This document shows positions 36,418 to 58,211 of a stretch of 64,000 bases of DNA, in pieces. This stretch comes from Phytophthora sp. 'mugwort' (lineage: Eukaryota > Oomycota > Peronosporomycetes > Peronosporales > Peronosporaceae), in NCBI GenBank assembly GCA_033558025.1, contig JAUCEF010000007.1, positions 1,798,001-1,862,000 on the forward strand. The letters are read 5' to 3'. Within the stretch, counting starts at the first letter, position 1. Each line of letters starts with the position of its first letter. A program made the position numbers and the translations under genes. The notes below the pieces were generated by a model, which was not told where the DNA came from, did no database searches, and worked only from the letters and a program-made list of their open reading frames with translations.

Positions 36418-36853
36418 TTATGGAGAGGGACAAGTGGCCGAAAACCAGGTAGGTGCACGACTGTACACGTGGGTGGAGTGAACTGACGAGCTTACCGACA
36501 CCACACGGCTGCTGCTTCGCGTCGTGCCAGCGTCACTTGGTCTCCGTCGCCAAGTAATAGAGCCCGATGACGTAAAAGCTCCGAGCCAGTAAGCACACAG
36601 CAGCGACGTGAAGACGCAAATAACTTTGAGCACGAGCGCCATTAGTATTCCCTAGGTGATTATGGCCACGAGCTTCAGTACGCTGGTGGCTGGCTCGCTC
36701 TTCCTCGGCAGCGGCTGCGCGACGATAGGCACACGAGCGGATGGCGTCAGCCACGACTGCGGATACGCGTAGTTGACCTACGTCTGTATGGTGAAGGTCA
36801 TGATCGATTGTCCTGCGATGCGATGCACGCAAGGGGCCGTTTTTCGCAGCCAC
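36418..36853 (-). pseudogene. Small membrane-protein pseudogene with two in-frame TAG stops
   Basis: On the minus strand one frame reads MTFTIQT, a TAG, VNYAYPQSWLTPSARVPIVA, a Lys/Glu segment ending LKLVAIIT, a second TAG, then GILMALVLKVICVFTSLLCA, a membrane segment, and GAFTSSGSITWRRRPSDAGT. A GTAAGC splice donor follows at ~36497-36492. Both stops could come from CAG-to-TAG or TGG-to-TAG changes. The MALVLK start alone would give a 74-aa signal-peptide-like ORF, but the continuous frame upstream argues for a broken longer gene. Family unknown. Confidence 0.5.
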
Positions 36854-37114
36854 ATCGATGCTCTCGAGACTTTGTGTAATGCAAATTCGGCTTCCTGTTC
36901 GCCCAAGCTTCGCCTATTAAGTATTAATTCCAAAATGCCGAACAAAAGTCATCTTTTATCCGACGTTTAACCGCGTTACTACGCTGTCAAAGACGTACGA
37001 GAAGTATTTGCACCGCTCGGGCGGGAGTTGTTTCGGGTCTAACAAATCGCCTTGAGCCAGTGGGATACTGTCGCTTAGATATGTTGAGTCTGCTACCGAC
37101 AATTACATCTCGGG
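36854..37114. other. Left flank of the palindromic gypsy element
   Basis: No gene. CGGGTCTAAC occurs near 37033 and again at 37111-37120 across the LTR edge. The 5 bp outside the left LTR (TCGGG) do not match those outside the right LTR (TTTAG), so no target duplication is visible. Confidence 0.5.
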
Positions 37115-37398
37115 TCTAACGGGGTAAGAGTTACCATTGCTAGCTTGCACTATTAGTAGCAGAGGAAGCTTCTAATTAACAAACCCAGTGTCACTTTAGT
37201 GGCAAATTTAACTCTGTTTTATTTTTAAGTCCGTGGAAAAGTTTCCCCGACTTTTGTGAGCCACTCGAATGTGGATCGACTCCTCATTAGTCGATATGGG
37301 TCTGGCAACCCATAATCAACCAATAGGAGAATAGCTACCTACTAAAGCAATATGTAACAGAAGCCTACTTACTTATGTAACAGACACAGCCCGTTACA
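37115..37398 (-). repeat. 3' LTR of the gypsy element (284 bp)
   Basis: Element-strand ends TGTAACGGGC and CCCCGTTAGA. It aligns along its length with 53178-53462, with about 25 differences by eye. It contains two further TGTAACAGA motifs. Confidence 0.9.
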
Positions 37399-37413
37399 TC
37401 CCCCCCCCTCTTT
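37399..37413 (-). promoter_or_regulatory. Polypurine tract
   Basis: AAAGAGGGGGGGGGA on the minus strand directly abuts the 3' LTR. It is the plus-strand primer site expected there and shows that the left LTR is the 3' LTR of a minus-strand element. Confidence 0.8.
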
Positions 37414-37484
37414 AAGTAGCGCTTACGGCAGCTTAAGCGCAAAACCGAAAGAAACACCCAACTGTCAATCAATCAATCCAACTG

Positions 37485-37620
37485 CGGGAAACTTTTCCTT
37501 GGACTTAAAAATAAAACAGAGTTAAATTTGCCACTAAAGTGACACTTGGGTTTGTTAATTAGAAGCTTCCTCTGCTACTAGTAGTGTAAGCTAGTAACGG
37601 CAACTTTTTACCCCGTTACA
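37485..37620 (+). repeat. Inverted 136-bp fragment of the 5' LTR
   Basis: The reverse complement matches 53313-53178 with essentially no change, ends CCCCGTTACA and is followed by a second copy of the primer-binding site at 37623-37631. It lies 72 bp from the polypurine tract, in opposite orientation to the neighbouring 3' LTR. It marks the outer limit of the palindrome. Confidence 0.88.
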
Positions 37621-37680
37621 CCTGGTAGCACTTCGTAGTCCTTCCTATGCCCAAGTACGAGATGAGCCTGGACGGGCCCT

Positions 37681-38709
37681 ATGCGACCCCAGCGACAACG
37701 CTGGATCACTCGGCCTTCCCCCCATCTCACCACCGTCGAGTGGCAAGCTCTACACCGCCTCGCGGCGGTATCAGGAGAAGTCTTCGTAACGTCGCTGCTG
37801 AGCTCAGCGACGCCCGAACGACAGCGTGAAGCCATTCAAGAGCTTATGTCATGCGAGCTCGCCGAAGCGAATCGGCGAGTATCAACACCCTCGCGTGGCT
37901 CACGGAGCGATGCTGTCAAGATGGAGACGTCGACTTACTCCGGTGTCGGACAAAACCGTCTGCCACTGAACCGCTGGTTCCGCGAAGTCGACATCGCAGT
38001 CGCTTCGAGGATAATCGAAGCGACCCCAGCAAGAATTAACTTCTTGCTGTCTCGCCTGTCCGGAAAGGCGAAGGAGTGGGCCCTAGGCAAACTGGTTGCC
38101 GACCCCAATGCGTTCCCCACTCTGGAAAGCATCCAGAGTGACCTGCGACTCGCATTCGAGCCTCCACAGGACGAGGCACGCATGCGAGCAGACTTCTTTG
38201 CTCTCAAGCAAGGTCGACTGTCAATACGCGATTACGTTCAGAAGGCACGACAGTTAGTTTCGTGTGTACTTACGAACCCTATCGACATGGCCTCGCAAGT
38301 CCACGTCTTTAGTTTTTGTATGTGCGAGGGCTTGACGCGCTATTCTATCACGCGCGCCGACCCGGAGTCCCTGGAAGAGGCTTTCGCCCTCGGCGCTCGT
38401 GAGGACTATACTGTGTCGTCTTCATACTCCCGCGGTCCCCCAGTCGAAGCCCGCGGGTCAGCGCCCGAGCCAATGGAGATCGACGCGATCGACATTCCTG
38501 TTGGCCGCGGTCGATTGCCCAACCGCGGCACTCGCACCCCGAGTATCACGACCTGCTACCGCTGTGGTAAACAGGGCCATCGCGCGGCAGTCTGCCGCGC
38601 GCCCGCGCCGGTTTACCGCGCTGCTGCGCTGGTCTACGCGAACGCAGTCGTCCTGAGGGATGATGCTTCTCGCCAGACGGCCCAGCCAAGAAACGATCAG
38701 GCCCAGTAG
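37681..38709 (+). CDS. gypsy Gag, left copy
   Basis: Intact 342-codon ORF. Residues ~85-230 are a retrotransposon Gag (capsid) region: [17 protein letters not shown], then [16 protein letters not shown] and [24 protein letters not shown] zinc knuckle, [14 protein letters not shown], lies at ~299-312 after an acidic PMEIDAIDI segment. It would assemble virus-like particles and bind element RNA. The stop at 38709 separates it from the protease frame. Its sequence is identical to the right copy, although pol is broken in both. Confidence 0.88.
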
Positions 38710-38753
38710 GTGCGGGGCGCCCTACTGGCTGGAACGGAGGTCCGGATCCCCCG

Positions 38754-41700
38754 GTGGCAACCGAACTTCCTAGCCCCTATGTGCAGAATGCACATTTTAA
38801 TGCCACCATCAGCAGCGGTGATTCCAGACTAATCATCGTCAGTCTGTTCGTCGCTGGCGCGCGGCGTCCACTCCGCGCGCTTCTCGACTCCGGCGCGTCG
38901 AATAATTTCTTCAGGGCGTCGTGTCTCTCGCTACTACCCGCTTCGGTTCCGGTCCATGAGGGGCCCGTGAACTCATCGTCAAACTGGCTGACGGGAAGCC
39001 GCATCGTGTGCCGCGGCGAGTGGTCTCGCTCCCGTACACTTTCGACGGCTTCCGCAGCAACGACGAGTTCATGATGTACGAGATGAATTACGCGTTCGAC
39101 TGCATCCTAGGGATACCGTGGCTTGCATGGTATCGTCCGCAGATTGACTGGCTGGCCCGATCGGTAAAACGTCGGGCTGATTTCGATGTACGAGAGGTGT
39201 CCACACACCTGCTCGTCGCACCCTCGGACTGGCCACACGTCCGAGTGGTGGATCAATCAACTACGACGCATTCCATGCATCGAGAAGGCGATGACCCTCT
39301 TTGCATGGTATGCGCTGTATCGGTGGATGTACCTGAGGCGGTCGAGCAGAGAGGCTCCCGCGAATAATATGGCGGTCGAGCATCCGAGGCTCCCGGGCAT
39401 TCAGGAGGCGGTCGAGCAGGGGCTCCCGCGAGGGGGTCGAACAGGGGTTCCCTCAAATTTCCGCGGCGGTCGAGCAGAGGCTCCCGCATGATTCCGTGCG
39501 ATTAAGGCAGAGCTCTCGCACCTAGAGGGGGGTATTCAGAAAATTCATCGGGCTGCGACAGTGGCGTATCAGTCTCGGGCAGGGGCTCGAGACGCACGAA
39601 ATCATCGCGCCGAGCCAAGCGACGGCTGAAGCCCCGCCTCGATCCCAGCGACAGCAAACAGGCTGTGCTGGAATCCGTGCACGCCCTTGAGTATGTGGAT
39701 GGTTCCCCACAACGCAGTTGCAGAATTGAGGTCTCGAGTCCAGCTCGCGACGCAGCGTCGATCATCCGCTTGCCGGGTTTCTCGTGGAAGAATTTCCTCC
39801 ACGAGCTCAAGTCCGGCGAAATTGATCAAGTGTGCTTGATCACCATCGAGGCTCCAGCGCATGACACGTTCAACGCCGTAATTGACAATAACGTGTCGGC
39901 TCGGCCTCATAACGCCGAGTTGAAATCAGCGCGCGAAGAACGGTTCGCGGCTCAGTCCTGGGAATCACTCCAGGCATCCAATAACCCGGTGTACACGATC
40001 GCCCGGGAATACGCAGATGTATTCCCGAATAAAACTCCTGCAGAACTCCCCGCCGACAGAGGAGTCACAACATTGACCTCGCCCCGGGCACGAAATACTG
40101 CGTGACGCGGCAGTGCTCACTGCCGCGAGACCAAGTCATTGCGATCGACGAGTTCTTTGAGGTCGACGGCGAACGCGGCCACATCCGTGAGAGCATCTCG
40201 CCTCACTCGCGCCCGACTTCTGCGTCAAGAAGGCGACGGGTGGATGGCACATCGTTCACGCTTTTAACAAGCTGAATGATGCCACCATCCCCGCACAGAC
40301 ACCGATTCCTCGAAAGGACATGGTATTAGACTCCATGTCAGGCAGCACGATCTACAGCGCGATCGATCTGACAGAAGGGTTCTATCAGATCCTCATGCGA
40401 GAGAGTGATGTTCCTTCACTGCGGTAAGCACTCCCAGTGATATGCTCTGTGAGTGGCTCGTGATGCCACAAGGGCTCAAGACGCCCCTGCCACGTTCAAT
40501 CGCATGGTTTCCCAAGTACTCCGCCTGCTCTGTGAATTTGCACCGAGCTACTTCGACGATATCTTCGTTTGCAATCACGCTGAAGGTAATCTCAGCGCAG
40601 TCGAAGTTCACCTCGGACACTTAAAACGTCAGTGGCTGGGTCTCGCGAGTTATCTTCACAAGTACACGAAGAATTACGCCGGCCTGATCCAGCCACTGTC
40701 ATCCTTGCTCAAGAGGGATGTCGTCTGGTTATGGCGTCCGGAACACCAAGCAGCGTTTGATTCGGTGAAGAAGATCCTCTCCGAAGCTCCAATATTGGTA
40801 CTCCCCAACGACGCCAAACCATTTCACGTGGTTTGTGACGCCAGCGATTTTGCCATTGGATGCGCTCTCATGCAATTCGATGATGAGGGCCGTGAGCGCG
40901 TTGTGAGCTTCCAGTCACGGCAGATGAAGCCGGCCGAGAGGAATTACCCGGTACATGACAAGGAGCTGCTCGCGATACGCGACGCCCTGATTAAATTCAA
41001 AGTGTACCTGCTCGGCGAGCAGACGTCATGCGTCGCTGAGGACTGCGACCAAAAGTCCACACCTCTCGCAACGCATGGCTCGCTGGTTGTCATTCTTTGC
41101 GGAGTATAATTTCGTCGTGCATTACAAGCCCGGCAAGAATAACATTCTTGTTCGACGCGTTGTCGCGCCGTCCTGACTATGATCCACGTCGGGACCTCGG
41201 TCATCAAGCCCTTGTTGAAGTGGATGAGGATGACGAGTGCGCGTGCTGTGTTCAGCTTGACGTCAATGCGGCATTGACGTCCCCGATTCCGTCCCTCCGC
41301 GATCTGGTCGCTGAGGCGTATGCTCATGATTCGTTCTATGCGAACATCATTGATCATCTGCGCGAGCCGACCATCAAGTCCGAAAAGAAACTCACGGGTC
41401 CCGTTCGTTCTCACATCAAGCGGTATCAGCTTGATGGTGCGTTGCTAACGTATACAGTCGATACGTTCGACTCCCCTCGCGTCGTCGTCCCTGCTGACGA
41501 CGACCTTCGTGCTCGTCTAGTCCATGAATACCATGACGCTCCTGTCTGTGGTCACCTCGGACGCGAGAAAACGTTCGGCGCCTGTGGCACGACTTCTTCT
41601 GGCCCCACATGCACAAGTGGGTCCGCAAATGGGTACGATCGTGTGAGATCTGCCAGCGAGTTAAGCCGGCTTCCTCGTCGCAGGCCCCATTGCGTCCGTT

Positions 41701-42985
41701 GCTAATCGCCACGGACGCGTGGCGCTCAGTCAGCATGGACTTTATCTTTCCTCCGGATGGCCAGGGCCGTACCGGTATCCAGGTCTTCGTCGACCGATTC
41801 ATCATAATGGTACATTTTGCTCCTGTTCCGGCCCAAATTTATGCGGAAGACACGGCTACGCTCTTCTTTTGACTTAATATTCCGACAGCACGGCCTGCCG
41901 GAATTTTCAATTGTTTCCGACCGTGACCCACGCTTCACATCGGCTTTCTGGAGCCGGTTATTCGAATTACTCGGTACCTGCTTCATCATGTCGACGGCAG
42001 CCCATCCAGAGACGGATGGGCAAACAGAACGCGTCAACCGCGTCCTTGAGGACGTGCTTCGCAGTTCCGCGACGTCTTTTACGTCGTGGAGTTCATTTCT
42101 CCCGCTCGCCGAATTCGCAATCAATAATTCCGTGCACGCGTTAACAGGGTTGACGCCGTTCTTCGTAAATTCCGCGCGGCACCCGCGTGTTCCCGCCGTT
42201 CTGGCTCTGGAGCCTCCCCCCACGGTATCGACTCCGCTCTTGGTGGGGGAGAACCTAGCGGTACTCAAGGAAAACTCTTGAGTCTTCCTCGATAGCGCCA
42301 CCGGCGAAGGGCCCGGTGGCCTCCGCGGCATCCACGCCTCTACCTGGCAGCACTAATACGGCTAAAGTTAATACGGTCCAAGCACACTCCACCGACATTC
42401 CAGTTACAATCAGCGCCGTCACACGTTCATCCACGAGATTACCACCGGTAACACACCCGGTGGCCGACCCGACGATTGCCAAGGGAAAATCCCGTTCTGT
42501 ATCTCGCGGTATTACCGACGCGATAGTACATACCGCGTCGCCCATAGCCAACTTCTCTCCACGAGAAGTTGATTCGCCGATAAGTTCCGCCGCGGTATCG
42601 GACTTCGTATTATGTCGTCAATCTGCACGCACAAAGTGCGTGACGCGCTGTAAGCAGCCGTATACAGAAAGAAAATGACCGCCGAGACCGTAAGAATACT
42701 TCTATCTTCCGGGTAGGCGACAGAGTATTATTGTCTACCGCCGGTATACAATCTACTGCAATTACGAATTTGGGAGCCAATAAATTGGCCCTGCGATTTA
42801 TTGGACCGTTTACGATACGTAAAGCAATTGGGGGCGCATATACATTAGATATTCCTAGGGCTATGCGACTACACCCGACGTTCTACGTCGGGTGGCTCAA
42901 GACTTATCTCCCGGCGGAGATCCCTGATCCGCAGGTGCCGGCTCGTACTCGGACATCCCAAGCCCACGATGATGTCGCCGACTTA
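38754..42985 (+). pseudogene. gypsy pol (PR-RT-RH-IN), left copy, broken
   Basis: Protease: LLDSGASNNFF with the active Asp at ~38886; the frame shifts near 39005 and continues as DCILGIPWLAWY. A GC-rich minisatellite linker follows. Reverse transcriptase is in pieces from 40090 to 40620: GGWHIVHAFNKLNDATIPAQ, YSAIDLTEGFYQILMRES and YFDD at 40549-40560. Just after EVHLGHL the frame jumps to KRQWLGLASYLHKYTKNYAG, so the RT thumb part is deleted. RNase H: FHVVCDASDFAIGCALMQFD, then NYPVHDKELLAI. Integrase: a YHDAPVCGHLG...CEIC zinc site, SMDFIF, SDRDPRF and [11 protein letters not shown] in several frames, then HPTFYVGWLKTYL. No chromodomain is visible. Lesions are identical in the right copy. 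Confidence 0.88.
39335..39490 (+). repeat. ~5-copy minisatellite in the pol linker, left arm
   Basis: Repeats of a GGCGGTCGAGCAG-GGCTCCCGCG-type unit, length ~24-36 bp with variable spacers. It lies between protease and reverse transcriptase. The mirror copy is at 51308-51463. Confidence 0.8.
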
Positions 42986-43759
42986 AGCGAAGTCCCCGCG
43001 CTCGCGCGTCATCTCGCCCTGCTGCGGCACTTCAAATGCCGCAGTCTCCAGCCGCCGGAGTCGCTCTACGAGAACCCGTTGTTTCCGACGGGTTCGCTCT
43101 GCAGAGGACGTCACGGCATCCGCGTCTTCCCGGGCCTTCTCCGCCATCTCGCGAGCGTCCTGCAATTCATCCGTCATCTGTTGCGCCTCAGCTCGCAGAA
43201 GACGACATTCTTCCGCCGTCATCCCTTCCGATTGCGAGGCCGCCTCGGAAGGCTGAGTCCCCTCCACGACAACGGGAGCATTATCACCGTGATGGTCCTC
43301 CCCCACTGACTGATGCGACTGGCGCTCGGCGCGCGCGACGATTCCCGGTCCGGGCCAACGCCCGGCACGCCCCGAAATCCAGTATCGGGTCCGCTGGCTG
43401 GGGTTCCCGCCAGCGGAGGACACGTAGGAATCGCGTGAGGCTCTCCTTGGAGGATATCCCGGATATTGTGACCGACTTTGAGAAGTCCCATGTCTGCCGC
43501 CATGGTTCTTCACTCCAAGAGCTCCGCGAGTATTCAGGCTGAAAAGTCTGGGGATATTCCGGACCAGAGGTACGAGAATATGCTTGTCCAGAGTAACACG
43601 GATATTCCTGTGGAGAGGTCTCCGAACGATTTGGCATTCGCCCTCGCGAGCGGCTGCGCTCGGGAGCAAACCGACTCCAGATACAATATTCACCCGATCG
43701 ACTGCGATTTCGTGCCCGAGTACGCTCTCGCTCGTAGACACGCGAGCGATATTTTCCAT
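42983..43759 (-). other. Antisense coiled-coil ORF at the palindrome centre, left side
   Basis: 258 codons running against pol. Residues ~170-258 form a strong heptad-like helix (EECRLLRAEAQQMTDELQD, then KAREDADAVTSSAERTRRKQ). Upstream there is a QYPGYPPRR/SQRTRYW region. A neighbouring frame carries tandem PEY/QEY units (GPEYPQTFQPEYSRSSW), reminiscent of oomycete gypsy Gag N-termini. The sense strand over the same bases reads as poor LLRH/RRHP sequence, so coding on this strand is more likely. Its first ~55 codons lie in the single-copy centre. It may be an accessory antisense ORF or the Gag start of a second element joined here. Confidence 0.5.
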
Positions 43760-43807
43760 GTAATATCTAGTCCCATTCCAATCTGGTCACTGCGACCAGC
43801 GACGATC
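43593..43807. other. Single-copy centre (loop) of the palindrome
   Basis: The arms stop matching at about TTGTCCAGAG (left, 43592) and its complement (right, 43808). The ~215 bp between are unique in the window and belong to no complete gene. Both antisense ORFs start in or beside this spacer. Confidence 0.8.
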
Positions 43808-43886
43808 TCTGGACAAGAATATTCTTGTACCTCTGGTCCGGAATATCCCCAGACTTTTCAGCCTGAATACTCGCGGAGCTCTTGGA

Positions 43887-44417
43887 GTGAAGAACCATGG
43901 CGGCAGACATGGGACTTCTCAAAGTCGGTCACAATATCCGGGATATCCTCCAAGGAGAGCCTCACGCGATTCCTACGTGTCCTCCGCTGGCGGGAACCCC
44001 AGCCAGCGGACCCGATACTGGATTTCGGGGCGTGCCGGGCGTTGGCCCGGACCGGGAATCGTCGCGCGCGCCGAGCGCCAGTCGCATCAGTCAGTGGGGG
44101 AGGACCATCACGGTGATAACGCTCCCGTTGTCGTGGAGGGGACTCAGCCTTCCGAGGCGGCCTCGCAATCGGAAGGGATGACGGCGGAAGAATGTCGTCT
44201 TCTGCGAGCTGAGGCGCAACAGATGACGGATGAATTGCAGGACGCTCGCGAGATGGCGGAGAAGGCCCGGGAAGACGCGGATGCCGTGACGTCCTCTGCA
44301 GAGCGAACCCGTCGGAAACAACGGGTTCTCGTAGAGCGACTCCGGCGGCTGGAGACTGCGGCATTTGAAGTGCCGCAGCAGGGCGAGATGACGCGCGAGC
44401 GCGGGGACTTCGCTTAA
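43887..44417 (+). other. Antisense coiled-coil ORF, right side
   Basis: 176 codons, the mirror of the left ORF. It has the same C-terminal helix and stop; the start here is the MKNHGG codon because the upstream part lies in the unique centre. Its sequence matches the left ORF throughout. Confidence 0.5.
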
Positions 44418-45415
44418 GTCGGCGACATCATCGTGGGCTTGGGATGTCCGAGTACGAGCCGGCACCTGCGGATCAGGGATCTCCGCCGGGAGATAAGTCT
44501 TGAGCCACCCGACGTAGAACGTCGGGTGTAGTCGCATAGCCCTAGGAATATCTAATGTATATGCGCCCCCAATTGCTTTACGTATCGTAAACGGTCCAAT
44601 AAATCGCAGGGCCAATTTATTGGCTCCCAAATTCGTAATTGCAGTAGATTGTATACCGGCGGTAGACAATAATACTCTGTCGCCTACCCGGAAGATAGAA
44701 GTATTCTTACGGTCTCGGCGGTCATTTTCTTTCTGTATACGGCTGCTTACAGCGCGTCACGCACTTTGTGCGTGCAGATTGACGACATAATACGAAGTCC
44801 GATACCGCGGCGGAACTTATCGGCGAATCAACTTCTCGTGGAGAGAAGTTGGCTATGGGCGACGCGGTATGTACTATCGCGTCGGTAATACCGCGAGATA
44901 CAGAACGGGATTTTCCCTTGGCAATCGTCGGGTCGGCCACCGGGTGTGTTACCGGTGGTAATCTCGTGGATGAACGTGTGACGGCGCTGATTGTAACTGG
45001 AATGTCGGTGGAGTGTGCTTGGACCGTATTAACTTTAGCCGTATTAGTGCTGCCAGGTAGAGGCGTGGATGCCGCGGAGGCCACCGGGCCCTTCGCCGGT
45101 GGCGCTATCGAGGAAGACTCAAGAGTTTTCCTTGAGTACCGCTAGGTTCTCCCCCACCAAGAGCGGAGTCGATACCGTGGGGGGAGGCTCCAGAGCCAGA
45201 ACGGCGGGAACACGCGGGTGCCGCGCGGAATTTACGAAGAACGGCGTCAACCCTGTTAACGCGTGCACGGAATTATTGATTGCGAATTCGGCGAGCGGGA
45301 GAAATGAACTCCACGACGTAAAAGACGTCGCGGAACTGCGAAGCACGTCCTCAAGGACGCGGTTGACGCGTTCTGTTTGCCCATCCGTCTCTGGATGGGC
45401 TGCCGTCGACATAAG

Positions 45416-45423
45416 GAGGTGGG
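45416..45423. repeat. Left target-site duplication of the hAT (8 bp)
   Basis: GAGGTGGG here, GAAGCGGG at 48814-48821. The empty site in the left arm reads GAAGCAGG on the same strand. Three variants of one 8-bp site, as expected of an old hAT insertion. Confidence 0.75.
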
Positions 45424-45602
45424 TAGAGCTGTCGCCGGAGTTTAGCGTAACCTCTGTTAACAACTTATTTTTAAAAACCTGTGTTAACCTCTAACCTCCG
45501 GAAATCTCCGCTCAACCTCCTATACAAAAGCCAAGTACAAAAATCTTGGCGACCGGCCGACAGTCACTTCAAGTAGAGAGACAAGAAGGCAAGGTGAAAA
45601 CA

Positions 45603-48172
45603 ATGGACGAGCTCCGCTCTCCAAACCCGGTCGCCAGGACTTCAAAGTCTCCTCGGACCCCAGCTAAGGCTAGCTCCGGGTGTGCCAGTGCCAGTTCGTC
45701 GACAGAAGTTCTAAAAAGGCTGGCCCGAGCCGAGTTCCCTCGTCTGTATCCCGACAACACTCAGGAAAGCATGCAATCACCACAGCTCTCGTCCACGACC
45801 CTAGTCGCAACCAGATACACGATGCATCCAGTTCATCTCAAGCCGGTGATGATAAACAACTCCGAATGCTGCATCCCGCGGCTCATCCGTCAGTAGCGAC
45901 CACGGCAAAATCGTTCGAGTTCGAAGAAATCCTCACTCAACAAGCAAAAGAAAACACGAGCAAGTCCCCCCCCTTGAACAGATCGCCAGCCCGGCAAGTC
46001 CACCCCAGCAGCATGCAGTCCCTGTTCCTCCTGAACGAGATCTGAATTCAGAAATGGCGGAGCGCTGGCGGTTTGCCCATAAACCAAGCACACGGCTTAA
46101 ATCGGCCCCTCCACGGCTATTTACACAGTTTTTTCCTGATCAATCACGTTGGTACCTCTCGGATGAAGAGTTTGACAACAGCCACGCTTTGTATGCCTAT
46201 TGCAAAAAGTGCAAGATGATACTAGCTTTCACGGTAGGGAATGACAAAGTGACAGAGCTTATGACGAAGTATCACGGTCGCGAGCTGACAGAGTACGCAG
46301 CAACCAAGAAGTTGCAACGCAGATTAGAGAAGGAATCTGTCGAAATTTCCGTGGAGTTCCGCACGATCATCTCCGAAGAACAAAAGGAGTTTAACAGACT
46401 CCTAGCAAAATGGATTGCTAGCCACTTTCGTCCATTTGGTTGAAGACAAAGGGTTCGTTGCTTTCTTGTCGCATTTATTACGGAAACATTGTCTCGGGTC
46501 AAAGTGAAAATGCCAAAGCGCACTCAGTTGCGTGGCTGCATCGTTGGATTTGCCGCTGAGCTCAGACTCCAAGTTCGGGATGATATCAAGCAGTTTTGTC
46601 TGTATTTTTCGATCACCCAGTGATATTTGGTCAGCTTGCAATGCGCGAAGTTACATTGCGTTCACAATTCATTACTTGACCGAAAACTTTGAGGCTAGAA
46701 ACTGGACACTGGAGGTAAAAGAACTTCCGAGTATCCACACAGGCGAAGTCATAGCCAAAGCATTAGATGAAATCATGCTGGAATGGAAGCTCCCAAAGAA
46801 TACTGTACTCGATTTGTCAGGGATTCTGGTGCCAATATGGTCAAAACGGGAAAATCGTGGGCATTTTTAATGCTCCTTGCATGGCTCACGAAATTCATTT
46901 TGTTCTATCTGGAGCATTGGCGACTCAAAAGAAGTCGTTTAGATAAACCGAAACCAGCATGAGCGTATATTTTTGACATGGAGGAAGGTGCGGTCGCCAC
47001 CGAACACGAGATTGATGAGGATCTAAATGATGATTAGAGCCGACATGGAGGCTGTTCGCGATATGGCAGTTGAGGAGCTTACTAGCTTTATTGACGCGAC
47101 ATTGGCGACACTGGAAAAGGATGGCATGCAACCATGAGGGAGATCGTCCAACGTTCCGTTCACTAGCTGTACATTTCCGGCGGTCCACCAAAGCACACAG
47201 TTGTCTTGAAGCCATTCAGAAGACAAATAATCCACAAGCAACAGCATTTACAATTGTCGATTGTCCCACTCATTGCAATAGTAGCTGGCTTATGCTGACT
47301 CGATGTGTCGCCTTCAGCCATCTTCTGAAAAATTCTTTGAGCATTTATTTTCCGACGAGGGTCGTCTGGGGTTCAAAGATATTCGCAACACGTTGTTGAA
47401 GCCTAAATACCAGGAATGGCTAGCTATCAAGTGTCTATGTGTTTTGTTGGAACCGGTTACAACCGTCTCAACCCCAGCGAAATCAGCTGGGTGGTCAAGC
47501 GTATCCAACACTACCGCTTGTCATGCCTGCAATTGAGGCCCTTGAAAACGTTCTGAAGGACAGCAAACGTTTTGATGGCATCTTAAATTCTGCCAGGAAG
47601 GAGACCTGCATAGATGAAGTTCGAGTGGCTATGAAAGATTGCGAAGTTGTGATTAAGCGGTTGTTGACAAGCGATTTGCAAAGTTGAAGTCGATCGATCT
47701 GGACTGGATAGCATACTTAGATCCCCGAGTGGCTAGCGAAATGAACCATTTGACAGTTGAGACCGCATCAGACGCTCGAACTCAATTTCTTGCCGCCGCC
47801 ACTGAGTTTGCACCTGATCGTATCTCTTGTGAGAGCACCGGTATATTGTCTGGAACTACAGTGAAAGCCCCCGATCGCGTAACTAGCCGTATGTTTGGCA
47901 AGAAGAAATCTGCGGAAGCACCTGCGACTAGAGTGTGTGAGCGGGAGTTTGATCAGTATTTGGCGGCTGCCAAAATGCTGGACGCTTCGACTGATAAAAA
48001 GTTCAACACCTTCGATTGGTGGTGCACGAACAAGGGGTCGTATCCTATCCTCGGTAAATTAGCACGTAAATGGCTGGGAGCTGTCGTGACAAGCGTTCCG
48101 TCAGAGCGAGCTTTTTCTACCAGCGGCAACGCGTCACCGCTAAGCGCAGCTCGTTGGCACCCGACTGGTTAG
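45603..48172 (+). pseudogene. hAT transposase, frameshifted
   Basis: 45603-46045 gives a Ser/Pro-rich N-terminus (MDELRSPNPVARTSKSPRTP and, after a frameshift, EFEEILTQQAKENTS). 46054-46443 gives a BED-like zinc region (YAYCKKCKMILAF...KYHG) and FNRLLAKWIASHFRPF. 46640-46830 gives YIAFTIHYLTENFEARNWTL and LPSIHTGEVIAKALDEIM, a classic hAT block. 47439-47687 is the next helical segment. 47684-48172 gives the C-terminal dimerisation domain (FDWWCTNKGSYPILGKLA, then TSVPSERAFSTSGN). Stops and frameshifts between these pieces show it is dead. Confidence 0.82.
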
Positions 48173-48329
48173 GGATCCCGTATTCATCGCGGAGAATACA
48201 CACAAGGAAACAACACTTCAGCTTGAAGGCTAAACAGTCAGCGAGGCGATTTCTTTTGCTATAACCCAACAAGTCGAATACAGTTCTTCACGACATGCTT
48301 GTTGACAACAGACGCTTTACAGTGTTCTA

Positions 48330-48645
48330 GGCTCTCCCGGACGGGGTCCCAGCGACCAGTACGCGGCGCAGACATGATCTGCAGCCGGTCATGTTGTTGT
48401 TGTCGAGCAGAATGTAGACAAAGAGCCGCAGCGTGGCGCCCTTGACCACCGTCTGCGCGACCACGGCCCCCAGGCACTCACCACAGTAGGGGCCGCACAC
48501 CTTGTTGCAGTTACTACCTCCACGAGCGTGGGTAGCACATCGGGCAGGAACGGGCCACGGCGTCCCGCGTGACACGCGAGGTGATGGCTAGCAGCGAGCA
48601 CACATCCTTGACGATCTGCGAGCGCAGGTCCTGCAGAAGCTTTGC
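48330..48645 (-). pseudogene. Captured host fragment resembling a CLASP/TOG HEAT domain
   Basis: On the minus strand, inside the hAT and antisense to its transposase, three frames in succession read AKLLQDLRSQIVKDVCSLLA then ITSRVTRDAVAR, next FLPDVLPTLVEVV, next NKVCGPYCGECLGAVV then TLRLFVYILLDNNN. Together they follow the HEAT-repeat order of CLASP N-terminal TOG domains (LRSQIVK-C-L; LLPTL; GNKV; C-x-V). Two frameshifts separate the pieces. It has no similarity to hAT proteins. I infer transduplication of part of a host gene, but the identity rests on motif order only. Confidence 0.55.
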
Positions 48646-51307
48646 ATTGGTATTATTGGTAGCTAGCTAATGCAAGAATTTGATTGAGCAATTGGATTTG
48701 TGTGGATCACATAGACGGAGGTAAACGCGGGTTAGCACAAGTTGAAGCGAGGTTAGTAACCCATCGGAGGTAGAGGTTAGTTAAGGGAGGTTAGCTTAAC
48801 CACGGCAGCTTTAGAAGCGGGTACCGAGTAATTCGAATAACCGGCTCCAGAAAGCCGATGTGAAGCGTGGGTCACGGTCGGAAACAATTGAAAATTCCGG
48901 CAGGCCGTGCTGTCGGAATATTAAGTCAAAAGAAGAGCGTAGCCGTGTCTTCCGCATAAATTTGGGCCGGAACAGGAGCAAAATGTACCATTATGATGAA
49001 TCGGTCGACGAAGACCTGGATACCGGTACGGCCCTGGCCATCCGGAGGAAAGATAAAGTCCATGCTGACTGAGCGCCACGCGTCCGTGGCGATTAGCAAC
49101 GGACGCAATGGGGCCTGCGACGAGGAAGCCGGCTTAACTCGCTGGCAGATCTCACACGATCGTACCCATTTGCGGACCCACTTGTGCATGTGGGGCCAGA
49201 AGAAGTCGTGCCACAGGCGCCGAACGTTTTCTCGCGTCCGAGGTGACCACAGACAGGAGCGTCATGGTATTCATGGACTAGACGAGCACGAAGGTCGTCG
49301 TCAGCAGGGACGACGACGCGAGGGGAGTCGAACGTATCGACTGTATACGTTAGCAACGCACCATCAAGCTGATACCGCTTGATGTGAGAACGAACGGGAC
49401 CCGTGAGTTTCTTTTCGGACTTGATGGTCGGCTCGCGCAGATGATCAATGATGTTCGCATAGAACGAATCATGAGCATACGCCTCAGCGACCAGATCGCG
49501 GAGGGACGGAATCGGGGACGTCAATGCCGCATTGACGTCAAGCTGAACACAGCACGCGCACTCGTCATCCTCATCCACTTCAACAAGGGCTTGATGACCG
49601 AGGTCCCGACGTGGATCATAGTCAGGACGGCGCGACAACGCGTCGAACAAGAATGTTATTCTTGCCGGGCTTGTAATGCACGACGAAATTATACTCCGCA
49701 AAGAATGACAACCAGCGAGCCATGCGTTGCGAGAGGTGTGGACTTTTGGTCGCAGTCCTCAGCGACGCATGACGTCTGCTCGCCGAGCAGGTACACTTTG
49801 AATTTAATCAGGGCGTCGCGTATCGCGAGCAGCTCCTTGTCATGTACCGGGTAATTCCTCTCGGCCGGCTTCATCTGCCGTGACTGGAAGCTCACAACGC
49901 GCTCACGGCCCTCATCATCGAATTGCATGAGAGCGCATCCAATGGCAAAATCGCTGGCGTCACAAACCACGTGAAATGGTTTGGCGTCGTTGGGGAGTAC
50001 CAATATTGGAGCTTCGGAGAGGATCTTCTTCACCGAATCAAACGCTGCTTGGTGTTCCGGACGCCATAACCAGACGACATCCCTCTTGAGCAAGGATGAC
50101 AGTGGCTGGATCAGGCCGGCGTAATTCTTCGTGTACTTGTGAAGATAACTCGCGAGACCCAGCCACTGACGTTTTAAGTGTCCGAGGTGAACTTCGACTG
50201 CGCTGAGATTACCTTCAGCGTGATTGCAAACGAAGATATCGTCGAAGTAGCTCGGTGCAAATTCACAGAGCAGGCGGAGTACTTGGGAAACCATGCGATT
50301 GAACGTGGCAGGGGCGTCTTGAGCCCTTGTGGCATCACGAGCCACTCACAGAGCATATCACTGGGAGTGCTTACCGCAGTGAAGGAACATCACTCTCTCG
50401 CATGAGGATCTGATAGAACCCTTCTGTCAGATCGATCGCGCTGTAGATCGTGCTGCCTGACATGGAGTCTAATACCATGTCCTTTCGAGGAATCGGTGTC
50501 TGTGCGGGGATGGTGGCATCATTCAGCTTGTTAAAAGCGTGAACGATGTGCCATCCACCCGTCGCCTTCTTGACGCAGAAGTCGGGCGCGAGTGAGGCGA
50601 GATGCTCTCACGGATGTGGCCGCGTTCGCCGTCGACCTCAAAGAACTCGTCGATCGCAATGACTTGGTCTCGCGGCAGTGAGCACTGCCGCGTCACGCAG
50701 TATTTCGTGCCCGGGGCGAGGTCAATGTTGTGACTCCTCTGTCGGCGGGGAGTTCTGCAGGAGTTTTATTCGGGAATACATCTGCGTATTCCCGGGCGAT
50801 CGTGTACACCGGGTTATTGGATGCCTGGAGTGATTCCCAGGACTGAGCCGCGAACCGTTCTTCGCGCGCTGATTTCAACTCGGCGTTATGAGGCCGAGCC
50901 GACACGTTATTGTCAATTACGGCGTTGAACGTGTCATGCGCTGGAGCCTCGATGGTGATCAAGCACACTTGATCAATTTCGCCGGACTTGAGCTCGTGGA
51001 GGAAATTCTTCCACGAGAAACCCGGCAAGCGGATGATCGACGCTGCGTCGCGAGCTGGACTCGAGACCTCAATTCTGCAACTGCGTTGTGGGGAACCATC
51101 CACATACTCAAGGGCGTGCACGGATTCCAGCACAGCCTGTTTGCTGTCGCTGGGATCGAGGCGGGGCTTCAGCCGTCGCTTGGCTCGGCGCGATGATTTC
51201 GTGCGTCTCGAGCCCCTGCCCGAGACTGATACGCCACTGTCGCAGCCCGATGAATTTTCTGAATACCCCCCTCTAGGTGCGAGAGCTCTGCCTTAATCGC
51301 ACGGAAT

Positions 51308-51463
51308 CATGCGGGAGCCTCTGCTCGACCGCCGCGGAAATTTGAGGGAACCCCTGTTCGACCCCCTCGCGGGAGCCCCTGCTCGACCGCCTCCTGAATG
51401 CCCGGGAGCCTCGGATGCTCGACCGCCATATTATTCGCGGGAGCCTCTCTGCTCGACCGCCTC
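51308..51463 (-). repeat. Minisatellite in the pol linker, right arm
   Basis: Mirror of 39335-39490, with the same copy number and spacers. Minisatellites usually change copy number quickly, so the identity is informative. Confidence 0.8.
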
Positions 51464-52088
51464 AGGTACATCCACCGATACAGCGCATACCATGCAAAGA
51501 GGGTCATCGCCTTCTCGATGCATGGAATGCGTCGTAGTTGATTGATCCACCACTCGGACGTGTGGCCAGTCCGAGGGTGCGACGAGCAGGTGTGTGGACA
51601 CCTCTCGTACATCGAAATCAGCCCGACGTTTTACCGATCGGGCCAGCCAGTCAATCTGCGGACGATACCATGCAAGCCACGGTATCCCTAGGATGCAGTC
51701 GAACGCGTAATTCATCTCGTACATCATGAACTCGTCGTTGCTGCGGAAGCCGTCGAAAGTGTACGGGAGCGAGACCACTCGCCGCGGCACACGATGCGGC
51801 TTCCCGTCAGCCAGTTTGACGATGAGTTCACGGGCCCCTCATGGACCGGAACCGAAGCGGGTAGTAGCGAGAGACACGACGCCCTGAAGAAATTATTCGA
51901 CGCGCCGGAGTCGAGAAGCGCGCGGAGTGGACGCCGCGCGCCAGCGACGAACAGACTGACGATGATTAGTCTGGAATCACCGCTGCTGATGGTGGCATTA
52001 AAATGTGCATTCTGCACATAGGGGCTAGGAAGTTCGGTTGCCACCGGGGGATCCGGACCTCCGTTCCAGCCAGTAGGGCGCCCCGCAC

Positions 52089-53117
52089 CTACTGGGCCTG
52101 ATCGTTTCTTGGCTGGGCCGTCTGGCGAGAAGCATCATCCCTCAGGACGACTGCGTTCGCGTAGACCAGCGCAGCAGCGCGGTAAACCGGCGCGGGCGCG
52201 CGGCAGACTGCCGCGCGATGGCCCTGTTTACCACAGCGGTAGCAGGTCGTGATACTCGGGGTGCGAGTGCCGCGGTTGGGCAATCGACCGCGGCCAACAG
52301 GAATGTCGATCGCGTCGATCTCCATTGGCTCGGGCGCTGACCCGCGGGCTTCGACTGGGGGACCGCGGGAGTATGAAGACGACACAGTATAGTCCTCACG
52401 AGCGCCGAGGGCGAAAGCCTCTTCCAGGGACTCCGGGTCGGCGCGCGTGATAGAATAGCGCGTCAAGCCCTCGCACATACAAAAACTAAAGACGTGGACT
52501 TGCGAGGCCATGTCGATAGGGTTCGTAAGTACACACGAAACTAACTGTCGTGCCTTCTGAACGTAATCGCGTATTGACAGTCGACCTTGCTTGAGAGCAA
52601 AGAAGTCTGCTCGCATGCGTGCCTCGTCCTGTGGAGGCTCGAATGCGAGTCGCAGGTCACTCTGGATGCTTTCCAGAGTGGGGAACGCATTGGGGTCGGC
52701 AACCAGTTTGCCTAGGGCCCACTCCTTCGCCTTTCCGGACAGGCGAGACAGCAAGAAGTTAATTCTTGCTGGGGTCGCTTCGATTATCCTCGAAGCGACT
52801 GCGATGTCGACTTCGCGGAACCAGCGGTTCAGTGGCAGACGGTTTTGTCCGACACCGGAGTAAGTCGACGTCTCCATCTTGACAGCATCGCTCCGTGAGC
52901 CACGCGAGGGTGTTGATACTCGCCGATTCGCTTCGGCGAGCTCGCATGACATAAGCTCTTGAATGGCTTCACGCTGTCGTTCGGGCGTCGCTGAGCTCAG
53001 CAGCGACGTTACGAAGACTTCTCCTGATACCGCCGCGAGGCGGTGTAGAGCTTGCCACTCGACGGTGGTGAGATGGGGGGAAGGCCGAGTGATCCAGCGT
53101 TGTCGCTGGGGTCGCAT
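52089..53117 (-). CDS. gypsy Gag, right copy
   Basis: Intact 342-codon ORF, identical in sequence to the left copy: capsid region, then CCHC knuckle [14 protein letters not shown]. It is the copy next to the true 5' LTR and primer-binding site, so if the element is transcribed from that LTR this Gag is the one expressed. It starts 60 bp after the LTR. Confidence 0.88.
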
Positions 53118-53166
53118 AGGGCCCGTCCAGGCTCATCTCGTACTTGGGCATAGGAAGGACTACGAA

Positions 53167-53175
53167 GTGCTACCA
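53167..53175 (-). promoter_or_regulatory. gypsy primer-binding site
   Basis: TGGTAGCAC on the element strand, two bases after the 5' LTR. It pairs with a tRNA 3' end reading GTGCTACCA. The mirror copy is at 37623-37631. Confidence 0.6.
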
Positions 53176-53177
53176 GG

Positions 53178-53462
53178 TGTAACGGGGTAAAAAGTTGCCG
53201 TTACTAGCTTACACTACTAGTAGCAGAGGAAGCTTCTAATTAACAAACCCAAGTGTCACTTTAGTGGCAAATTTAACTCTGTTTTATTTTTAAGTCCAAG
53301 GAAAAGTTCCCGGACTTCTGTGAGCTACTCAAATGTTGATCGATTCCTAATTGGTCAATATGGGTTTGGCTCCCCATAATCAACCAATAGGAGGATAGCT
53401 ACCTACTAAAGCAATATGTAACAGAAACCTACTTACTTATGTAACAGACACAGCCCGTTACA
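53178..53462 (-). repeat. 5' LTR of the gypsy element (285 bp)
   Basis: Ends TGTAACGGGC and CCCCGTTACA on the element strand, a 9-bp inverted terminal pair. It is the source of the 136-bp inverted fragment at 37485-37620. Confidence 0.9.
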
Positions 53463-53714
53463 TTTAGCAGCTTCATCGGCATCGTTAGCAGCGTCAATGT
53501 AATCGACATAAGCGCGTAATATCTGCACTTGAGTAGGGTCTTCGTCGCATCAGGCTAGTCCGTCCAATTTCAGTAAGTGGCTATGTCATCATTGAAAGTC
53601 ACCGTTCCATTTATCCGGCCACTACATCTGCGATTCGTTCACAGACGGCGACCCCTATTCGATGCTTTTTAATGTGCGACAGCACACGCTTCGTATCTGC
53701 GCACCTAGCATCAT

Positions 53715-55330
53715 TCACGGCCCCTGGTTGACTCGGACGTTGGCTTCCTCGTCGCTAGGGTCATCAAAAAGAGGCCACCGCTCAGGAATCGCGTCGTGGG
53801 GGGCATTAGAGCCATCTGAATTCCGCTGACGGCGCAGAAGTATTATATGCTTGCAAGGCAGCAGGAGTATGTGATTGACACTTTCAGCTACAACTGCTGG
53901 ATTCGAGATCGAAGGCAAACTAATACTCGTAATAATAAAACAGATTGTAACTAAACAGAATATCATTTCTCACAGCGTACTCCTGGGCGGTTATCTTGCT
54001 CGTCAATGTAAGCATTTGATGTAGGTAATGCATCCGTCTCGATAGTGTAATCAACTTGCGTCGTATTGTTTTCAGCCAAATTGCGTGCGTGTCAAGTAGC
54101 AATGAGGCTGGAGCTCTTTGTCGTGTTGGTGGTTGTAGCGAATTCCGGCTCGCTTGGTCTTGACGCGATAATTATCTTCCACAGCTTCTGAAGAAAAAGA
54201 GGTGGGCAATACATTTATCCGCAGGCATATGCCAAGTAAGAACATCTTTGGCGGCTCGCCAACTTGCTTCCAGCCGGTTTTGGTGTTGTTGTCCAAGTGT
54301 GGAATGGTAACACGCATGAATGCACGCCACAGATGCTTACAGCTAAGCCAGTTAGACTCCAAGTACTCGTAAAAATACAGGTTTGTTGCTGCACGTTGTT
54401 TCTACAGTTTGTCGATAGCGATCAAATGTACTCTCATCGATCGTCCGCACCATTAGTCTGATTAAGGCCTTGATGTGAAGCTTCTCAACCGCCGCAAAAT
54501 TTATGCCTCTTACTGACTTTTCGCTTGAGATAATCAACGACGTGAAAATGGCATAAAGATGGTGATATCCGGCAACGCTTCAGTGAGCACAGTCAAATCT
54601 TTTCGATAACAACTACCTTGATGTTGACCCTCCCAGCATTTTGCGTTCAAATGCGCTAAACGCGTTCTTCATGTTAACCTTCGTCTCACCATCGACCAAG
54701 GAATTCTCGGCGAACGCCCTGAAACAAAATATATCCGTCACCATGAAACTGAACAAACGAGTGGGGTACAAATAGAAGCATTAATATGTTGGTGTAAATG
54801 CAACCAAACACTGCGGTGAACATACCACCAACTCGCCAACTACCACCAACTACTGACAACTCACCTGTTTACATTTGTTCCATGTGTGCTATCAATGCGG
54901 AAAACCTCTGGAAACTTTCGATCCATTCTCCGCATGGGCGCCGTCTGGAAAGTGATGTAACTTGTCAAATTGGTGCCAGAGGCCTGAAAGATACCAACTG
55001 CAATACTAGTACCTTCGCAAAACCTTGAAGGATGTCCGAGACGCGCTCATTGGCATCACTGGATGTGTAGGTCTCGCGCCGCATCTCCACAATCATGTTC
55101 TCAATGTCTTCTATCAGCTATGTTTTCGTGAAACTGTCTTTAAGTACCTCAATATCTTCTCGCGCTTGGACGCACATGAAAATCACCTCTTCGTATAGAT
55201 TGACTCGTTTAGATACGTCATCCAAGCACGTTTAGAGTAAAGCATGACCTTCCTTGCCACATTGTTTTAGCAACTCGCTTCGTAGCATCTTTCTCTTCGC
55301 CGCATACGAGAAGTACACATCTGATCTGAC
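53715..55330 (-). pseudogene. MULE (Mutator-like) transposase remnant
   Basis: Minus-strand reading: ~55260-55050 gives coiled helices (CVQAREDIEVLKDSF, then IENMIVEMRRETYTSSDANE). 54990-54860 gives SYITFQTAPMRRMDRKFPEV then FRIDSTHGTN, the first catalytic Asp block of Phytophthora-type MULEs. ~54730-54640 gives NSLVDGETKVNMKNAFSAFE. 54620-54480 holds FHVVDYLKR-like pieces. 54362-54072 gives ESNWLSCKHLWRAFMRVTIP. 53966-53715 gives LLPCKHIILLRRQRN, the end of a SWIM zinc finger, then IPERWPL. Frameshifts and stops occur throughout. The order supports one decayed gene. Confidence 0.75.
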
Positions 55331-55889
55331 AGCGGGTTGTGCGTTGAAATATGATTCGTCACCCGAGCTGTGTACATACCATCAATCAGAGAGCACACTG
55401 CATTGAGTCTTGCCTTGCACCCACGCGATCGAACAAATTCTGGTCGGTTCGGTCGCCTTCCGCACGGTTTGAACGACCACCCGTGATGTAGATGAAGGTA
55501 TTAGCGTAATACCTGAGTTTCTCACCGAAGAGAACATGCTTACGCCCCGATAATGATGCTAGTTTCGTACGAGTAGTGTTTCTGTAGCAAATGAGTTACT
55601 TGTACGTATCTTATAGATTTGATGCGTCTCTTGTTGTATTCGTAATGTGATCGCACGACACCCCATACATGTGTCTAGTTTAGAACATTAAAAATGATGT
55701 CCATACCGCTCGAGGGTGGGAACTCTGTACGAAATGGTGGGGCGTTGCACCAGGACATCGCTTCTCATGACCACCGCTGAATTGCTGATGATTTCAGTGT
55801 TATCAAAAGGTGTGTCTACACCTGGTGACGCACGACGAGCTGATCCGGGTCGGAGTCCGCGGCATGGCGCGGGGGAGGGTCAATGCGTG
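55331..55889. other. No gene recognised
   Basis: Between the MULE remnant and a short tandem repeat. The open frame 55716-56066 runs into the repeat and has no recognisable features. Confidence 0.35.
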
Positions 55890-56330: not shown

Positions 56331-57646
56331 ATGGTTCTGGTAGGATTGACTTCACAGACCCCCCCCCCCCGCATACACCATGCATAGCTAAAAGATGCTT
56401 TCCTTTCTCGTCTGTTGTTGCTCTCACCAAGTAGAAGCTTTACACGTACCCCGGAAACTACCGCGTCTTCAAGGCGCTCATTGCTGCTGAGTACAACGGC
56501 ATCGACATCGAGCTACCGGAGTTCGACTTTGCCAAGGAGATTAAGTCAAAGGAGTTCAAGAGCAAGACCCCAGTGGGCAAGGTCCCGATCCTTGAGACCG
56601 AGGAGGGCTGCATCTTCGAGAGCGGCGCCATCGCCAAGTACGTGGCTCGCCTCCGCGCCGACACTGGCCTGTACGGCAAGACCTTCTTCGAGTCGGGCCA
56701 AGTGGACGCTTGGATCGACTTCTCGGCCTACGAGCTAGAGATCCCACTTGAAGCCTGGCTGTACCCGATCATAGGCTGGGCCAAGTTCAATGCCGCCGCC
56801 CTTGCCAAAGCCAAGGCTGATGTGAAGAAGGCTCTGCAGACCCTGGAGAACCACCTGCACCTGCGCACCTACCTGGTGGGCGAGCAGATCACCCTTGCTG
56901 ATATCTTTATTGCCTCGGCTCTCGTGTACCCGTTCAAGTTCGTGCTAGACAAGGAGTTCCGCAAGCCGTACTCGGCCGTGAACCGTTGGTTCTCGACCCT
57001 GGTTAACCAGCCGGAGTTCCAGGCTATCGTGGGCGACGTGCCGCTCATTGACGTGGCTCTGACCGCCGAGGGTGACAACTCGACCACGAAGGCCACCAAG
57101 AAGGCCGCCCCCAAGAAGGAGAAGGCTACCCCCAAGGAGGAGGCCCCCAAGCCCAAGAAAGTGGAGCACCCGCTGGCCGTGCTGAACCGCGAGAAGCCGT
57201 CTTCTATGAACCTTGACGCGTGGAAGGTGCAGTACTCAAACACGAAGAACCTGGCGGACGCTATGACGTGGTTCTGGGAGCACTTGGACACGGAGGGCTA
57301 CTCGCTGTGGTTCTGCGACTACAACTACAACAATGAGAACACCAAGATGTTCATGACGTGCAACGCCGTGGGCGGATTCCTGCAACGCTCGGAAGCCATG
57401 CGCAAGTACGCGTTCGGTGTGATGGACGTGTGCGGCGCCGAGGGCTCGGAGATCATCATCACGGGCTGCTGGCTGTTCCGTGGCGACTCAGCGGAGCACA
57501 TGGTCGAGGCTAACCCGGACGCTGAGTACTACACGTGGAAGAAGGCAGAGCTGAACGACGAGACGAAGGCTCGCGTGGCCGCCTACTGGTGCAATGAGGA
57601 CGAGCTGGAGGGCAAGCCCATCGCCGACTCCAAGGTGTTCAAGTAA
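56331..57646 (+). CDS. Translation elongation factor 1B gamma subunit
   Basis: Exon 1 is only 9 nt (56331-56339, ATGGTTCTG) and exon 2 is 56435-57646; the intron of 95 bp has a GTAGGA donor and a TAG acceptor. The product is 406 aa. Residues ~1-80 are a GST-N-type thioredoxin fold (KLYTYPGNYRVFKALIAAEY, then GKVPILETEEG). ~90-200 are a GST C-terminal helical domain (LVGEQITLADIFIASALVYP). ~215-238 are a Lys/Pro-rich linker. ~240-406 are the EF1G domain (KPSSMNLDAWKVQYSN, then EGYSLWFCDYNYN). It anchors the eEF1B GDP/GTP exchange complex that recharges eEF1A in the cytosol. Without the micro-exon the first ATG would be at 56573, and the GST fold would lack its first strand. Confidence 0.93.
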
Positions 57647-57649
57647 GCG

Positions 57650-58211
57650 GCTTCATGGCGTCGTTTTGTGTCAAGTCACTGGACTCAAGTGTCGATGAGC
57701 TCATTAAGATCTCGGTAGTAGTTCGCCTACTGTCAGTGCAATATTGTAGTCGTTAACTTGGAAATGAAAGAAACTAGTAGACCTTCAAGTTCGAGATAAT
57801 GATATTCACCAACATGCTGCATAATGAAAAGTGAAGGTGCTTCAGGCATGTCGGTCTAGAAAAACCTCGTGGTCTTGTCCTCCCGAGGTTTTTTGTCGGT
57901 GGGCGGGGTTTCCCCACGGCTCACTAGCGAAGTTGCGTCCCAGCCCGCAGAGGGAGGAGACAGAAGCGCGTGTCGGCTGCCGCCTTACGTGCCTCGTAGC
58001 GCCGCGCAGAGGAGAGGGAGCCCCGCACCGCTGTCCCCCAAACGACGGAGCAGAGCCCGCGCCCCATCCACGCGTAATCGTGACCGAGATAACAGCACCA
58101 AAACGCGCGCAACATTGTCCGATTGAGGGATATTTACGCGCCAGCAGTGACTCGACTAGGGGCGAAATAGCAGCAGCGTACGCCTATCAGACCCGCGGGC
58201 CATAAAGAGCC
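57650..58211. other. Intergenic region between eEF1B-gamma and MED14
   Basis: Holds the 3' UTR of the first gene and the promoter of the second. No other gene is seen. Confidence 0.5.

Follow-up and report, generated by a model that had tools for sequence, protein, structure and literature searches.

Long inverted repeats with similar arms are described from sex chromosomes, such as the human Y and the willow W, where the arms are reported to be kept alike by arm-to-arm gene conversion (PMC7023750). Inverted duplications with spacers, attributed to fold-back, have been presented for human (PMC3907307) and yeast (PMC7467729), and a paper on XMRV treats uncoordinated retroviral integration as a process that alters host DNA, its own case being a 273-bp duplication (PMC2857682). 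Here we analyse a 64-kb stretch of the genome of Phytophthora sp. 'mugwort' (contig 7, C7:1798001-1862000; hereafter the window, to which positions without a contig number refer). It carries a retrotransposon bounded by long terminal repeats (LTRs) whose interior is a palindrome. The explanation that we favour, and consider probable, is that a single rearrangement turned an old, defunct Ty3/gypsy element into an inverted duplication, the arms of which have since been kept identical by gene conversion. No matching palindromic retrotransposon or strand-switch case was found in the open-licence literature as represented by titles and the beginnings of abstracts, and the listings of that literature contained no account of arm conversion in an oomycete transposon palindrome.

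A palindromic interior between one pair of LTRs

BLAST comparison of positions 35000-56000 with the window gave two long inverted matches, one of 4500 bp at 99.96% identity (37485-41984 against 53312-48814) and one of 1606 bp at 99.8% (41988-43593 against 45412-43807). Kilobases of inverted identity at 99.9% exclude chance. The left arm (37485-43593, plus strand) contains the last ~135 bp of an LTR, the primer-binding site (PBS), gag and pol; the right arm (43807-53312, minus strand) contains the end of the 5′ LTR, PBS, gag and pol, and aligns with the left one at 99.8-99.96% except for a 3.4-kb hAT transposon that is confined to it. Between the arms lies a single-copy spacer of 213 bp (43594-43806, plus strand). 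The gag open reading frames of the left copy (37681-38709, plus strand; Retrotrans_gag by domain search) and of the right copy (52089-53117, minus strand) encode identical 342-aa products. The two outward-facing gag-pol copies proposed in the initial annotation are present. A direct match at 91.0% (37113-37399 against 53176-53463) corresponds to the outer LTRs, and an inverted match at 92.0% (37486-37622 against 37247-37113) pairs the LTR piece at the tip of the left arm with the 3′ LTR.

The element is read on the minus strand because its polypurine tract and its PBS-like sequence are both on that strand. The 5′ LTR measures 285 bp (53178-53462, minus strand), its inner 135 bp (53178-53312) forming part of the right arm, and is directly followed by the PBS-like sequence TGGTAGCACTTCGTAG (53160-53177, minus strand; by eye, approximate limits). 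On the other side, the polypurine tract AGAGGGGGGGGGA (37399-37412, minus strand; by eye) adjoins the 3′ LTR (37115-37398, minus strand), whose outermost CA reads GA; the limits of both LTRs were set by eye. On the element strand the order is therefore 5′ LTR, PBS, gag and pol up to the equivalent of 43593, followed in inverted orientation by pol (from 43807), gag, PBS and the last ~135 bp of an LTR, and finally a 72-bp piece of the element's 3′ end, the polypurine tract and the 3′ LTR. The 72-bp piece (37413-37484, minus strand) is shared by eight other genomic places and meets the inverted LTR piece at 37484/37485. BLAST and reading of the ends thus bear out what had been reported earlier, namely a single outer LTR pair in the same orientation with a PBS and a polypurine tract, and a stretch of the 5′ LTR reversed next to the 3′ LTR, a stretch which turned out to be the last ~135 bp of an LTR.

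Domain searches of the element returned Retrotrans_gag, RT_RNaseH_2, RT_RNaseH and SH3_Tf2-1, with Integrase_H2C2 below its cut-off; the core reverse transcriptase domain had no match in the open pieces searched. By its gag, RNase H and Tf2-1-type SH3 domains we classify the element as a Ty3/gypsy LTR retrotransposon, an assignment with which its gag followed by a pol bearing RNase H and integrase-associated domains, and its direct LTRs with PBS and polypurine tract inside, agree. The gag product has 263 relatives at E 1e-3; the 120 listed are 50-80% identical to it, and many bear the name Phytophthora or Peronospora. An Rfam search of the window gave zero matches.

The two inner junctions were sought throughout the 86.26-Mb assembly (154 contigs, to which C-numbers refer), the genome to which all counts of other copies apply. 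With a query covering the centre (43500-43900), six other copies matched up to the spacer end and none of the six crossed the central junction; in these copies the spacer is continuous with the sequence of the left copy and then runs on past 43807 into other sequence. With queries for the outer junction (37413-37485 and 37400-37800), none of the eight other copies of the 72-bp piece spanned both sides, all of them stopping at or before the junction. A further check, scoring 40 of 48 candidates, agreed, no other row covering both sides. In three copies (L002, L005 and L008) ~0.66-0.77 kb separates the equivalent of 43807 from the 72-bp piece, a region that is missing from the palindromic element. 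A family of palindromic elements that transposes as such, which the initial annotation had put forward for checking, is rejected, since neither inner junction recurs (0/6 centre copies, 0/8 3′-end copies) and the same genome yielded no second copy.

Microhomology at the junctions is 0-1 bp by eye (~1 bp at the central one), and no junction coincides with the PBS, the polypurine tract or any RNA end that can be recognised. The LTR is broken close to base 150 of 285. The oomycete initiator motif is given as YCAYTYY (PMC3599244); the conserved GCTCACAGAAG located just before the break does not fit it by eye. In another family copy (L007, C11:2482420-2482491), the 72-bp piece and the polypurine tract (C11:2486472) are ~4 kb apart and split at TTAA, presumably the pattern left by a TTAA-targeting, piggyBac-like insertion.

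Arm identity, LTR divergence and the hAT insertion

The arms differ at seven places in 6,109 bases (~0.1%), namely one indel (37489) and six substitutions (41979, 41985, 41987, 43280, 43574 and 43582). In contrast, the alignment of the outer LTRs has 22 differences in 281 bases (92.2% identity, ~8% divergence). Five other LTR pairs of the family are 89.1-95.7% identical, and the tree of 22 LTRs is star-like, with only one of 19 inner branches well supported; the family is therefore an old burst, and the palindromic locus is no younger. LTR divergence as proof of separate insertions is rejected, since true pairs of the family are equally far apart. The arms are thus more alike than other sequence of like age at the same locus, as would be expected of a gene-converting palindrome.

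The differences are not spread evenly. Taking as edges the outer junction, the hAT edges and the central spacer, all but one of the seven fall no more than 20 bp away from one (80 bases at risk, p 3.5e-11, the limit having been picked after the data were seen); other limits give 4/7 at 10 bp (p 6e-8), 6/7 at 30 bp (p 4e-10) and 6/7 at 50 bp (p 8e-9), and the hAT edge alone, at 20 bp, accounts for 3/7 (p 1e-5). Divergence at the edges is 7.5% (6/80; interval 2.8-15.6%), close to the 7.8% of the LTRs, compared with 1/6,029 in the arm interior. By comparison with other family copies, the changes at 41979, 41985, 43280 and 43582 are specific to the left arm, and those at 37489, 41987 and 43574 to the right arm; the family AAA at 37487-37489 is kept in the left arm, the right LTR having lost one A. 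Both arms carry a change at base 41982, two bases away from the hAT edge, but the other target repeat of the hAT is unchanged there, a pattern expected from arm conversion after the hAT insertion. Arm-to-arm gene conversion is the process that best fits these sequence patterns and the near-identity of the arms.

The insertion in the right arm (45424-48813, plus strand; 3.39 kb, limits by eye) provides a clock inside the palindrome. It is identified as a hAT transposon by a dimerisation domain (47657-48169, E 2e-13), by terminal inverted repeats (TAGAGCTGTCG and TAAAGCTGCCG) and by an 8-bp target duplication, the flanks GAGGTGGG (45416-45423) and GAAGCGGG (48814-48821) now matching at 6/8. Its closest copy in the genome (C7:4938843-4942261) is 89% identical to it, with a target repeat matching at 8/8. 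The hAT is degenerate, and relatives in split form are found on C10 (81-87%). The left arm has the uninserted length of other family copies, and the arms are identical on either side of the hAT, for 4.48 kb or more (a bound set by the stretch tested) in one direction and for 1.29 kb in the other. Since the hAT is one-sided, its target repeat decayed and the left arm of uninserted length, the arms were apparently already separate when the hAT arrived long ago. They would thus be old, older than the hAT; we do not claim for them the age of the insertion itself. The hAT, the contrast between LTR and arm divergence, the absent target-site duplication and the lost host DNA described below had gone unmentioned in the initial annotation.

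Patterns within the LTRs also deserve attention. Four rare derived bases are common to the two outer LTRs, the highest number among 231 LTR pairs, all within the first 62 columns of the LTR alignment; the left LTR also shares three rare derived bases with a copy on C17. The outer pair differs at 2/88 bases in the first part and at 20/193 beyond it (p 0.017), whereas other LTR pairs show no such contrast (7.4% vs 6.7%). The alike stretches, the first 88 bp, are 53375-53462 and 37311-37398, and they suggest local LTR conversion.

Outer ends and host flanks

At the outer LTR ends two of five flanking bases match, and no shift produced a matching target-site duplication. Nine other copies have both ends readable, five LTR pairs and four apparent solo LTRs (6 of the 22 collected LTRs, which have no readable partner, were left out of this count); seven of the nine have 4-5 of 5 bases in register, one of the remaining two has a 6-bp repeat and the other matches with a 1-bp shift. 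The left (36510-37114) and right (53463-55714) host flanks belong to one old repeat (70-81% identity) with at least two paralogues, on C2 and C18. These two, C18:4303900-4306531 and C2:192064-196171, match both flanks in the same order, and both hold a segment of ~1.4 kb between the points equivalent to the LTRs. These segments are 75-78% alike, the C2 copy having further sequence besides, and the segment has no match in the 64-kb window. Two places on C1 match part of the left flank only and are uninformative on the missing ~1.4 kb. By this comparison, ~1.4 kb of host DNA is judged lost between the outer ends; that it was never present is less likely.

The absent duplication and the missing host sequence contradict the clean single element that had been described. 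Such a loss would be expected if two neighbouring insertions had recombined, or if the ends of one cDNA had integrated without coordination. The argument that two insertions would have left four LTRs does not hold, because recombination between neighbours, or deletion, removes inner LTRs.

As to the host repeat itself, the only match of four pieces of its relatives in domain searches was to SH3_Tf2-1, next to the C18 copy, and a window piece gave a weak ZSWIM1-3 match. The SH3_Tf2-1 piece belongs to another LTR element. Host genes to the right encode elongation factor 1 gamma (EF1G with GST domains; 56435-57643) and the Mediator subunit MED14 (58206-61604).

Origin of the palindrome and comparison with known systems

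The rearrangement that we favour would begin with a break near the 3′ end of the element, repaired by end-joining or template switching in which family members inserted nearby took part. This repair would have dropped ~0.7 kb of the 3′ part of the element together with ~1.4 kb of host DNA. The hAT would later have inserted in the right arm only, and arm-to-arm gene conversion would have held the arms identical, save for the last few bases beside each mismatch edge. We infer gene conversion as the cause of arm identity, and DNA repair in preference to reverse transcription as the origin; the latter is a lean at modest odds, prompted by the absence of any junction at the PBS, the polypurine tract or a recognisable RNA end. 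A pure fold-back primed from a hairpin is considered unlikely, there being no clear pairing stem at the centre (~1 bp of overlap by eye).

Several observations weigh against this history. The arm differences number only seven in all, and two of them (41985 and 41987) were placed by hand, the hAT gap having been split by the aligner. The outer and inner edges are set by the end of identity, which biases differences toward edges. A single event may account for the differences at 43574 and 43582, which together make a small palindrome in the right arm perfect. At 43280 the left-arm base is present in one of four other copies. Both arms carry three derived bases at the inner edge (43573, 43575 and 43590), so either conversion is patchy and comes within a few bases of the edge, or the element had already aged when it was copied; insertion thus does not date the formation of the palindrome. 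The rare bases shared by the outer LTRs suggest a pair from one parent, of which they would be expected; local conversion of one LTR end would explain them equally well. With about twenty copies known in the family, two insertions within 1.4 kb are also improbable, except under targeted insertion. The small palindrome mentioned above is the right-arm ACAAGAATATTCTTGT (43818-43826), made perfect by the two differences as quasi-palindrome correction would do.

The palindrome could instead have been formed in one aberrant cDNA by two sense/antisense template switches of the reverse transcriptase, the ends then integrating separately 1.4 kb apart with deletion of the host DNA between them, and conversion following. 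This departs from the favoured explanation in origin only, and we treat it as a serious though unlikely possibility. The sole outer LTR pair, its four common rare bases, the similar divergence of edges and LTRs and the GA in place of CA at the end of the 3′ LTR all speak for it, as does the point, made in the XMRV paper (PMC2857682), that uncoordinated end joining can remove host DNA and disrupt the target duplication. However, no junction falls at a recognisable landmark of reverse transcription, the shared rare bases are limited to one LTR end, and neither junction was seen in the other copies examined. A strand switch during reverse transcription, suggested in the initial annotation, accordingly survives as a possible origin, but by itself it fails to account for arms at ~99.9% beside LTRs that have drifted by ~8%. 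We give still less credence to three separate insertions, two on the minus and one on the plus strand, whose inner parts were lost by two deletions. Central deletions of inverted repeats are known. Nested LTR elements are reported as common in plants (PMC6911290); this history nevertheless requires a low-copy family to have inserted thrice at one spot, followed by two deletions, and the identity of the arms would need conversion anyway.

If the left arm were a young copy of the right one, made by a recent inverted duplication, a divergence of ~0.1% across 6.1 kb would simply reflect youth. The hAT would then have to be younger still, yet its target repeat has decayed, or it would have left the left arm without a change in length; moreover, each arm has changes of its own, concentrated at the edges, and the retention of the family AAA by the left arm runs counter to its derivation from a right LTR one A short. 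We consider such a duplication improbable. An artefact of assembly or polishing, in which the arms were collapsed or homogenised and true differences survived only where reads reach unique sequence, would account for differences remaining only near unique sequence. The differing host flanks, the one-sided 3.4-kb hAT and a spacer continuous with one copy point to two real arms, and ordinary long-read assembly would not collapse a divergence of 8%; we regard an artefact as very improbable.

If the favoured explanation is true, an inverted repeat without a useful gene and of selfish derivation is still being kept identical, and conversion would need geometry alone rather than selection for a gene. 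The one-sided hAT and the decayed LTRs serve as internal clocks for the locus, and, to judge by the way the differences cluster, conversion seems to halt within a few bases of a length mismatch. Near-identical inverted copies would then be unsafe evidence for the youth of a transposon. If the palindrome was instead formed in an aberrant cDNA, palindromic products of reverse transcription can integrate and persist.

The palindromic LTR element adds a further case of processes already known, in an unusual location. With the Ty3/gypsy elements of Phytophthora and Peronospora it shares gag and pol domains, and other copies in the same genome have target duplications of ~5 bp; the palindromic copy differs in its additional inverted gag-pol and in lacking both the region before the last 72 bp and a target duplication. 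The uncoordinated retroviral integrations treated in PMC2857682 likewise involve improper target duplication and altered host DNA, although the case presented there was a 273-bp duplication, whereas here host DNA has been lost and the unit, which resembles a provirus, is palindromic. As in the fold-back duplications presented for human and yeast (PMC3907307, PMC7467729), inverted copies flank a short spacer and a second rearranged junction is present; unlike them, the locus shares only ~1 bp at its central junction, has no clear hairpin stem and is confined to one transposon. The inverted arms, apparently kept alike by arm-to-arm gene conversion, resemble those described for sex-chromosome palindromes (PMC7023750), but these 6-kb arms lie inside a dead retrotransposon and hold no gene that the host would gain from maintaining.

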